Source of the DNA: Xanthomonas sp. NCPPB 1128
Lineage (GTDB): Bacteria > Pseudomonadota > Gammaproteobacteria > Xanthomonadales > Xanthomonadaceae
DNA: 34,923 nucleotides
Assembly (NCBI RefSeq): GCF_001043115.1
Contig: NZ_LFME01000044.1
Coordinates: forward strand, 1 to 34,923
Direction of reading: 5' to 3'
The translations under genes were made by a program, and so were the position numbers. The number at the start of each line of letters is the position of its first letter. The stretch's first letter is position 1. The notes under the pieces are model-generated. The model ran no database searches. It saw only the letters and a list, made by a program, of their open reading frames with translations, and was not told the origin of the DNA. Of the stretch, positions 2,239 through 5,200 are shown one piece after another.

Positions 2239-5200
2239 ATGATCGTCCTCGAGGGCGCTTCCGCCCTTTCGCCGTTCCGTCGCGCTCGGCTCGAAACCCG
2301 CCTGCAGTCCCTCGTTCCCGGCGTGCGCATCGTCGGCGCTTGGCACGTGTACTTCCTCGACGGCGACGACGCCGGGCAACTGGACCTGGTTGCGGCCCGC
2401 CGCATCCTGCAGGCGCAGGACGCGCCGGCGCCGGCCGACGCGGGCACCTGCTCGCGCTACGTGGTGCCGCGGCTGGGCACGCGCTCGCCGTGGTCGAGCA
2501 AGGCCACCGAACTGGTCCGCGGTGCCGGCCTGGCGATCCGCCGGGTCGAGCGCGGTACCCGCCTGGACCTGGCCGGCTGGCCGCAGGCGCCGGCCGACCA
2601 GGCCGCACTGGCCAGGCTGCTGCACGACCCGATGACGCAGTCGCTGCTGGACGACGCCGCGCAGGCGCAGGCGCTGTTCCAGGCGCCGGCGCGCGGCGAG
2701 GTCGAGCGCATCCCGCTGCAGCAGTTGGAAGCGGCCAACGCCCGTCTGGGCCTGGCCCTGGCCCAGGACGAGATCGACTACCTGCGCCAGCGCTTCGGCG
2801 AACTCGGCCGCGACCCGGCCGACGTGGAACTGATGATGTTCGCGCAGGCCAATTCCGAGCATTGCCGGCACAAGATCTTCAACGCCAGCTGGACCATCGA
2901 CGGCAAGGAGCAGGACCGCTCGCTGTTCCGGATGATCAAGCACACCCACCAGCAGACCCCGCAGCACACGCTCAGCGCGTACAGCGACAACGCGGCGGTG
3001 GTGGAAGGCCATCCGGCCGCGCGCTACCGCCCGGATCCGGCCAGCGGCGAGTACCGCAGCGAGGCGGTGGCGCCGTCGGCGTTCTGCATCAAGGTCGAGA
3101 CCCACAACCACCCGACCGCGATCGCGCCGTTCCCGGGCGCTTCCACCGGCGCCGGCGGCGAGATCCGCGACGAGGGCGCCACCGGCCGCGGCGGCAAGCC
3201 CAAGGCCGGCCTGACCGGTTTCAGCGTCTCGCACCTGCGCATTCCCAGCCTGCCGCAGCCGTGGGAGGGCGCGCGCCCGCTCAACCCGCGCATGGCCCCG
3301 GCCCTGGAAATCATGCTGGACGGCCCGCTCGGCGGCGCCGCGTTCAACAACGAATTCGGCCGGCCCAACTTGCTCGGCTATTTCCGCAGCTTCGAGTTGC
3401 GGGAGACGCAGGAGCTGACCCGTGCCTACGACAAGCCGATCATGCTGGCCGGCGGCCTGGGCGCGATCGACCGCGTGCAGGTGGAGAAGATCCCGCTGCA
3501 GCCCGGCGATGCGGTGATCGTGCTCGGCGGCCCGGCGATGCTGATCGGCCTGGGCGGCGGCGCGGCCAGTTCGGTGGCTTCCGGCGACAGCGCCGAGGAC
3601 CTGGATTTCGCCAGCGTGCAGCGCGACAACCCGGAGATGGAGCGGCGCGTGCAGGAGGTCATCGACCGCTGCGTGGCGCTGGGCGCGGACAACCCGATCC
3701 GCTGGTTCCACGACGTTGGCGCCGGCGGCCTGTCCAACGCCATCCCCGAACTGCTGCACGACTCCAGCGTGGGCGGGATCATTGACCTGGACCGCGTACC
3801 CAGCGACGACCCGTCGCTGTCGCCGATGCAGCTGTGGTGCAACGAATCGCAGGAGCGCTACGTGCTCGGCGTGCCGCAGGCGCGCCTGGCCGAATTCGCC
3901 GCGATCTGCGAGCGCGAGCGCTGTCCGTTCGCCGCGGTCGGCGTGGCGACCGCCGAGGAACGGCTGGTCGTGGGTTACGGTGTCCTCGGCGGAGGGAATG
4001 GCGAAACACCAGCCGCACCCGCTTCTCACGAATCCCCAATCTCGAATCCCCAATCCCCGCATCCGATCGATCTGCCGATGGACGTGCTCTTCGGCAAGCC
4101 GCCGAAGATGCACCGCGACACCCGGCAGCCGCCGGCGCCGCGCTGGCCGGAGCTGGACACCGAGGCGCTGGACCTGCGCGAGGCGGGGCTGCGGGTGCTG
4201 GCCCATCCGACCGTGGCGGCGAAGAGCTTCCTGGTCACCATCGGCGACCGCAGCGTCGGCGGCCTGACCGCGCGCGAGCAGATGATCGGCCCCTGGCAGC
4301 TGCCGCTGGCCGATTGCGCGATCACCCTGGCCGGCTTCGACACCCACGCTGGCGAAGCGATGGCGATCGGCGAGCGCACCCCGCTGGCCCTGCTCGATGC
4401 CGCCGCAGCCGCACGCATGGCGGTGGGCGAAGCGATCACCAACCTGTGCGCGGCGCCGGTGCAGGCGCTGGACCAGGTCAAGCTCTCGGCGAACTGGATG
4501 GCCGCGGCCAACCACGACGGCGAGGACGCGCGCCTGTACGCCGCGGTCAAAGCGGTGGGCATGGAACTGTGCCCGCAACTGGACCTGAGCATCCCGGTGG
4601 GCAAGGACTCGCTGTCGATGCAGGCGCAATGGAGTGTGGCTGGGATTCGGGAGTCGGGATTGGGGATTGGGGAGAGCGCCGCGCGCGCGGATAGCGCTTC
4701 TGCGAATCCCGAATCTCCACTCCCCGCTCCCGGCGTCAGCGAGACGCACAAAAGCGTCTCGCCCGTCTCGCTCATCGTCTCCGCCTTCGCGCCCGTCGCC
4801 GATGCGCGGGCGCAGCTGACGCCGTTGCTGGCGCGCGAGGCCGAGAGCGAGCTGTGGCTGATCGGGCTGGGTGGCGGCAAGCAGCGCCTGGGCGGTTCGG
4901 TGCTGGCGCAGGTGCATGGCGACGGTGCGCTGCCGGCGTTCGGCGGCGCGGTGCCGGACCTGGACGATCCGCAGCGGCTGCGCGCGTTCTTCGAGCTGAT
5001 CCGCGATGCGCGCGAGGCCGGCATGCTGCTGGCCTATCACGACCGCAGCGACGGCGGCGCGTTCGCCGCGCTGTGCGAGATGGCGTTCGCCTCGCGGCAG
5101 GGCCTGGACATCACCCTCGATGCCTGGGGCGACGATCCGTTCCGCAGCCTGTTCAACGAGGAACTGGGTGCGGTGGTGCAGGTCGCCAGGGAAGACCGCG

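Follow-up and report, generated by a model that had tools for sequence, protein, structure and literature searches.

The window analysed here, a 34,923-nucleotide (nt) stretch of Xanthomonas sp. NCPPB 1128 (contig NZ_LFME01000044.1, positions 1 to 34,923 of the forward strand), carries a purL gene whose open reading frame (ORF) runs from an ATG at 2239 to a stop codon ending at 6267. Along its whole length, the protein matched phosphoribosylformylglycinamidine synthase in NCBIfam, and PurL is intact and full length. Inside this gene lies a palindromic element of tandem G-rich heptamers and their inverted counterparts, which begins at 4642, in the first position of codon 802; the segment 4642–4733 is read in frame as PurL residues 802–832. 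A second in-frame site in the same gene (3973–4062) had been missed by the initial annotation, a note made from the sequence before this analysis. The element belongs to a dispersed family of palindromic repeats and lies in frame; we consider it probable that the PurL loops tolerate such copies and that these copies are rewritten toward the genome's own pool of repeats.

All the parts named in the initial annotation, namely a GGGATT array, GAGCGC and GCTTCT junctions and an inverted AATCCC array, were found within 4642–4733 (GAGCGC at 4674–4679, GCTTCT at 4696–4701, inverted arm from 4704; Table 1). The heptamer arm plus inner motif, approximately 38 nt, recurs inverted at the opposite end, thus forming terminal inverted repeats like those of miniature inverted-repeat transposable elements (MITEs). 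The ends are mostly GCC-GGGATT and AATCCC-GGC and lack the GTAG/CGTC head of the repetitive extragenic palindromic (REP) sequences linked to REP-associated tyrosine transposases (RAYTs). As RNA, this element folded to −59 kcal/mol (z −4.1), and only one of 200 shuffled sequences folded as well. The element at the other site is a half-eroded copy in which the right arm keeps three units and the left arm one, and it aligned with fuller copies in the purL loci L098 and L099 (L numbers are our locus labels); 76 nt of it, taken as RNA, showed no fold (z +1.2). An Rfam scan of 2000–6600, to an E value of 1, returned one match, to a miRNA model at 22 bits against a gathering threshold of 59, which was taken as chance.

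The two sites are Gly/Ser/Pro-rich, poorly conserved loops, placed by sequence alignment to the Salmonella PurL structure 1t3t and by Pfam matches. In the alignment to chain 1t3t_A, the match ended at query position 801 (chain 795) and resumed at 836 (chain 798); the query started one codon before the ATG, and these positions are residues 800 and 835. The best AIRS_C stretch in Pfam ended at 579, the start of loop 1, and the PurM_N-like match (662–801) halted at the loop 2 element. Between the same Trp and Pro, Salmonella PurL has 11 residues and loop 2 of the window has 43, a net gain of 32 residues. The gain of about 32 residues claimed earlier therefore agreed in size, although it had been stated relative to Escherichia coli and was obtained here with Salmonella and Lysobacterales. 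The element does lie in frame within conserved PurL without breaking the frame, as had also been proposed by analogy with Rickettsia palindromic elements (RPEs). The description of purL as essential was too strong: the gene is needed for making purines and is thus conditionally essential. An AlphaFold2 model of PurL residues 195–1072 from 39 aligned sequences reached a predicted local distance difference test score of 35.7 and a predicted template modelling score of 0.28 and was not used.

Table 1. Features of the purL locus and heptamer arrays elsewhere in the window.
Feature	Position	Strand	Content or basis
purL, phosphoribosylformylglycinamidine synthase	2239..6267	+	1,342 aa; ORF, Pfam, NCBIfam, alignment to 1t3t_A
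PurL loop 2	4633..4761	+	aa 799-841, 43 aa (11 aa in empty relatives)
Complete palindromic heptamer element	4642..4733	+	in frame as aa 802-832
Left arm	4642..4669	+	four G-rich heptamers GGGATTC, GGGAGTC, GGGATTG, GGGATTG
Left inner motif	4670..4679	+	GGGAGAGCGC, variant of common SGYAARAGCG
Core	4680..4694	+	between the two inner motifs
Right inner motif and first right-arm unit	4695..4710	-	zero-mismatch match to GGGATTSGYARNAGCG
Right (inverted) arm	4704..4731	-	GAATCCC and three degenerate units
PurL loop 1	3973..4062	+	aa 579-608, 30 aa (13 aa in most empty relatives); second in-frame element
Single left-arm unit in loop 1	3994..3999	+	GGGAAT; other left-arm units missing relative to L098/L099
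Right arm of loop 1 element	4030..4057	-	three units
Intergenic G-rich array, heptamer family	1912..1939	+
C-rich array	2168..2195	-	just upstream of the purL ATG
Intergenic G-rich array, heptamer family	32189..32214	+
Intergenic C-rich double array	32654..32713	-	adjoins minus-strand ORF ending at 32720

The initial annotation had held that the segment shares its parts with intergenic elements and had proposed a genome search as a check. This search recovered copies: the 92-base segment had at least 83 matches at E ≤ 1 in its own genome (the best 40 of 273 first-look candidates being scored), and the junction of arm and inner motif, GGGATTSGYARNAGCG, occurred 192 times with one mismatch allowed, compared with 3 times for the reversed control. 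More than 100 array sites were seen in this genome, and two-unit array matches numbered 455 for GGGATT and 89 for GGGAAT. Complete pairs, drawn from 38 regions plus the window, shared one plan: approximately four GGGATTS units lead into an inner motif close to SGYAARAGCG, and beyond the core the complementary motif precedes three to four AATCCCS units. The two arrays were separated by 18 to 143 nt, inner motifs included, and the ends were often GCC and GGC. Separately, the genome of Lysobacter changpingensis (L080, G058) contained long single-orientation heptamer arrays (C2:470797-471208 and C8:178730-178868), unlike the short paired elements.

A total of 95 purL genes were compared, comprising 79 of the 80 loci of one set and 16 further Xanthomonas genomes; L063, in which the loop pattern was not found, the duplicates L086, L101 and L103–L106, and the non-purL matches L107–L114 were left out. 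At least two typed units were present in loop 2 of 40 genes and in loop 1 of 38. Each loop was classed as empty in 52 genes, the loop 1 class including X. albilineans and Xanthomonas sp. GPE 39 (17 aa) as well as L046, where the loop is really long and cut by a stop; other sequence occupied loop 2 in three genes and loop 1 in five. Within Xanthomonas, 36 of 38 purL genes (22 + 16 genomes) carried elements in both loops, and a stop-free purL match was found in 20 of 20 genomes of the genus. The exceptions, X. albilineans and GPE 39, are placed among carriers in the tree, have no units in either loop (21 and 17 aa) and have almost none genome-wide. The suggestion that the element landed in this strain can therefore be set aside; the loop 2 copy was inherited. 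An 11-aa loop 2 was found in nearly all Stenotrophomonas (not MMGLT7), three Lysobacter and 16 of 19 Pseudoxanthomonas. The carriers outside Xanthomonas were Stenotrophomonas sp. MMGLT7 and P. wuyuanensis, in both loops, and P. sacheonensis and Pseudoxanthomonas sp. 3HH-4 (L060), in loop 2; the nearest relatives of 3HH-4 (L069, L070 and L064; 90.5, 90.1 and 89% nt identity) have 11-aa loops. On a tree built without the loops, the minimum number of presence/absence changes was six for loop 2 and four for loop 1, counts that do not separate gain from loss. Aligning PurL across relatives had also been proposed as a check, and it revealed no conserved non-repeat loop: loop 2 is filled in carriers and has 11 aa in most other species.

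Other sequences were observed in loop 1 of some relatives. In L046 (Pseudoxanthomonas sacheonensis), this loop has approximately 60 codons with an in-frame TAA and a different terminal palindrome, CCCCTCTCCCGACGGGAGAGGGG, which indicates a split gene or an assembly error. A non-heptamer loop of 36–42 residues with the common pattern GYGATxESVY was present in L025, L026, L050 and L075, from different lineages; DEPRG occurred in three of these four, and the insert is possibly another repeat in the same loop. The record of L037 bears the title Bacillus subtilis SK7B5, but its purL is placed with those of Stenotrophomonas in the tree, and the record is mislabelled or contaminated.

Across species, the purL loops contained units of the types GGGATT, GGGAAT, GGGACC, GGGACT and GTGATT. 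Loop types were compared with whole-genome counts of two-unit arrays, which include the purL copies themselves. For 78 loops in 40 genomes, the match to the genome pool scored −69.9, compared with a mean of −168.9 (sd 14.1) after shuffling; none of 10,000 shuffles was as good, and none of 10,000 shuffles restricted to clades matched loop type to genome as well. The loop type was the modal type of the genome in 57 of the 78 loops. In 3HH-4, loop 2 is of the GTGATT type, and its genome has 55 GTGATT pairs compared with 1, 0, 1 and 1 for GGGATT, GGGAAT, GGGACC and GGGACT, respectively; GTGATT pairs numbered at most 16 in the nine other genomes in which they were counted. The GTGATT elements of 3HH-4 keep a similar inner motif, and the heptamer therefore changes while the plan stays.

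The loops also changed type between close relatives. The purL cores of Xanthomonas sp. F10 (L005) and L092 are identical at 98.5% of bases, but both loops differ in type, with 1 difference in the 93 bases before loop 1 and 9 in the 135 after it. At least 19 type changes were required on the tree for loop 1 (38 carriers) and at least 20 for loop 2 (40 carriers), numbers that are inflated by tree error and recombination. Within the F10 genome, five further loci matched its loop 1 element with scores of 115, 106, 95, 93 and 92, whereas no loop in the other 94 purL genes scored above 85; among the matches listed, the top own-genome locus had 83% identity across arms and core (E 3e-23). A second mode of change, in which the arms switch type around a constant core, was seen in the X. 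arboricola/prunicola/codiaei group: the two arms of loop 2 are together either GGGATT or GGGAAT, and the core and the 38-residue length are unchanged. In loop 1 of L091, L098 and L099, the left arm is of the GGGAAT type and the right arm of the GGGATT type; thus, arms can change independently.

The coding status of array sites was evaluated by codon usage in their 150-nt flanks, using the same model, trained on the window, for two genomes. The sites of the window's genome were those that resembled the purL element or, among the matches listed, contained the junction motif, a non-exhaustive sample, and sites too near the end of a stretch (5 of 108 in this genome, 1 of 18 in 3HH-4) were not evaluated. 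One open coding frame on both sides was found at 2 of the 103 evaluated sites of the window's genome, both in purL, and at 1 of the 17 in 3HH-4, again in purL. At nine further sites of the window's genome, the same frame occurred on both sides with stops inside. The calibration of this test (90 of 90 windows) was made on its own training genes and is hence optimistic. A scan of spanning frames by GC content at codon positions flagged both sides at the two purL sites only, each in a plus frame and an overlapping minus frame. An earlier codon scan, whose background was poor, missed purL and was rejected in favour of the 150-nt-flank test. With C or G as the spacer base, arrays of GGGATT, GGGAAT, GGGACC and GGGACT have no stop in any frame of either strand, whereas GTGATT arrays are not fully open on the G-rich strand. 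The near-exclusivity of purL may fail in some species, given that 7–11% of heptamer repeats have been reported to overlap ORFs, a figure in which gene-end overlaps are counted (Rehm 2015; PMC4692102).

These results describe a dispersed palindromic repeat family that has no coding capacity of its own and whose copies normally lie outside genes. The two PurL loops, which are presumably neutral and flexible, would tolerate elements, so that copies there may survive as protein. Elements probably reached these loops more than once, in Xanthomonas and in three Pseudoxanthomonas lineages, and the purL copies were probably rewritten over time to resemble the pool of their genome, sometimes as a whole element and sometimes in both arms with the core kept. 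Copying or ectopic conversion from other loci probably does this rewriting, and loop sequence would then reflect both the descent of PurL and the repeat family of the genome. A stronger version of this account, in which concerted evolution of non-coding repeats rewrites PurL, ectopic conversion keeps the loops matched and the loops are, in two or more genera, the coding refuge that the family prefers, is proposed tentatively, and we place it just short of an even chance.

Several observations weigh against rewriting from the genome's pool or limit its support. The type differed from the genome's modal type in 21 of the 78 loops (e.g., loop 1 of L099, 4% of the pool, and of L012, 7%); the carriers are kin, so the shuffles overstate independence, and GTGATT was counted in 10 genomes and set to 0 in the others. 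A non-purL locus of X. melonis scored 107 against F10 loop 1, near the own-genome best, and the donor pool is therefore not sharply one genome. For loop 2 of 3HH-4, the own-genome best (65) barely exceeded the score of a purL loop from another genome (59). Moreover, loop 2 of the window scored 118 against loop 2 of L005 and 81 against the best own-genome copy compared; being closest to the purL loop 2 of another species, it was therefore inherited and not freshly rewritten. Relative to L069, L070 and L064, at approximately 10% divergence, the insert of 3HH-4 replaced about eight codons of the old loop, and no clean insertion or target duplication was seen. That the loop residues are present in mature PurL is a prediction from sequence. 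Selection on the frame, a point in favour of the account, shows weakly, through rarer stop-making spacers in purL loops: the spacer base A, which makes a stop in most types, occurred in 6 of 299 cases in purL loops and 12 of 192 elsewhere in the window's genome (p = 0.024), in a weak test that sets many species against one genome. Pre-adaptation of the elements, that is, openness in excess of chance, was rejected: 52 complete pairs were open in 3.71 of 6 frames compared with 3.70 after shuffling, no more than composition gives.

The turnover could also reflect recombination between species, with rare loop alleles spreading by homologous recombination of purL and the apparent type changes being imported alleles. 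The contrast between variable loops and nearly identical cores in close strains would be expected from such exchange, as would the affinity of loop 2 of the window with the purL of other species and the GYGT-type left flanks that accompany GGGACC-type loops in several species. In addition, the loop 1 allele of the window is common to L098 and L099, across sub-clades; because some loop 1 alleles cross sub-clades in this manner, recombination between species contributes. As a full explanation we regard it as possible but rather doubtful, given that the type matched the genome's own pool even under shuffling within clades, that GTGATT is far commoner in the 3HH-4 genome than in the nine others counted and that five other loci within the F10 genome resemble F10 loop 1 more closely than any other compared purL loop does. 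The few differences beside the loops of L005 and L092 also mean that any imported tract was short. Alternatively, the arrays might change in place by slippage or template switching, with hairpin-mediated correction keeping the arms alike and no traffic between loci. Such a process, which would readily account for arms that switch together around an unchanged core and for variable unit numbers, and for which slippage of heptamers has been mentioned (Rehm 2015), nevertheless leaves unexplained the match to the genome pool, the resemblance of purL cores to those at other loci in the same genome, and the new element of the family plan in 3HH-4 at a site where near relatives have none. We consider it improbable.

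Retention by function, through an mRNA hairpin, a G-quadruplex or a useful flexible loop (e.g., in pausing, mRNA stability or enzyme assembly), seems unlikely. X. albilineans and GPE 39 do without units in both loops and nearly without them genome-wide, a single left-arm unit remains in loop 1 of the window, which shows no fold, L018 and L019 have a shortened loop 2, and arms of mixed type occur in loop 1 of L091, L098 and L099. These features must be set against the near-exclusivity of purL in both genomes surveyed, which belong to different genera, the strong hairpin of loop 2 and the persistence of the element through about 20 type changes, all of which a function would explain. Ordinary drift of a low-complexity loop with a chance likeness to repeats can hardly be entertained: the loops are indeed Gly/Ser/Pro-rich and poorly conserved, but chance would not produce the excess of junction matches over the reversed control with a zero-mismatch instance in purL, the genomic matches of the segment or the agreement of loop type with the genome pool. 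The rewriting of tolerated in-frame copies toward the genome's pool thus remains the account that we prefer. On this account, purL would serve as a coding recorder of the spread and homogenisation of palindromic repeats, with two fixed sites in one orthologous gene that are empty in relatives and filled mostly with the local repeat type in carriers, which makes repeat movement and conversion directly testable. It would also provide a route by which the drift of non-coding repeats may alter an enzyme sequence without loss of the gene.

A 2013 study in BMC Genomics (Di Nocera 2013) dealt with REPs inside genes. In this study, GTAG/CGTC REPs were reported inside conserved genes, including a tRNA synthetase gene in X. 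oryzae, different REPs were located at about the same recB site in X. campestris and X. oryzae, and some genes were the only ones affected in a species (PMC3733652). Those repeats resemble the present elements in being palindromic and lying in conserved Xanthomonas genes, and differ in being GTAG/CGTC-tagged and lacking heptamer arms. G-rich heptamers have likewise been described in Xanthomonas as dispersed, mostly intergenic repeats that form quadruplexes in vitro and for which no function was found (Rehm 2015). Convergent inverted pairs numbered 70 in X. campestris pv. campestris (Xcc) and 75 in X. axonopodis pv. citri (Xac), and repeats overlapping ORFs at least partly accounted for 11% and 7%, respectively (Rehm 2015). 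The initial annotation knew of no palindromic protein-coding repeats described in Xanthomonas; both this repeat class and REPs within conserved genes have been described there. The left arm in the window contains four units of the same tandem form, (GGGANTN)n with at least two units, and the element has the convergent inverted arrangement that is common, not required, among those repeats. That screen required GGGAATC (GGGNATC family), and the present element, which has no GGGAATC unit, is a sister type and not a strict member. The accessible text of Rehm 2015 contains no inner motif, no in-frame enzyme loop and no comparison of types beyond Xcc and Xac, and purL is absent from its main text. 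In the parts of PMC2432079 and PMC2817692 that were available, there was nothing on heptamers. No PurL insertion and no filling of PurL loops by heptamers was noticed in the top-ranked literature on repeats, palindromes, quadruplexes and intragenic insertions, which covered few subscription papers, and the literature on purL in Xanthomonas yielded a single, unrelated paper on a rice genome. The heptamers, their inverted pairs, their occasional intragenic position (Rehm 2015) and the presence of REPs in conserved Xanthomonas genes are already known, whereas the recurrence in two PurL loops across genera, the genome-matched turnover and the near-exclusivity of purL appear to be new.

The likeness to RPEs drawn in the initial annotation holds in part. 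Both are palindromic elements read in frame in conserved genes, here in a conserved enzyme, but as far as the available part of a review shows, RPEs have entered numerous unrelated genes, in which they code for a family peptide (PMC10969869). In contrast, only purL was found among the 103 + 17 evaluated sites, which are not a whole-genome survey, and the loop peptide varies with heptamer type. Enterobacterial RU elements are also MITE-like repeats present in annotated genes with the frame kept (Delihas 2007; PMC2759123). They comprise 127-, 168- and 103-bp units at a range of gene loci, and no site recurring across genera is mentioned in the abstract.

Other features of the window lie outside the heptamer family. 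An open frame at 7357–15576 encodes 2,739 aa with repeated head-like motifs and presumably resembles a giant YadA-type trimeric autotransporter adhesin. The GTAGGAGCGGCTTC palindrome at 32246–32315 is an element separate from the heptamer family. The GTAGGAGCGGCTTCAGCCGCGAC palindromes at 32246–32315 and 6668–6695 resemble RAYT-linked Xanthomonas REPs listed in PMC2817692, and a pair similar to them was nested inside the core of a heptamer element in L132.

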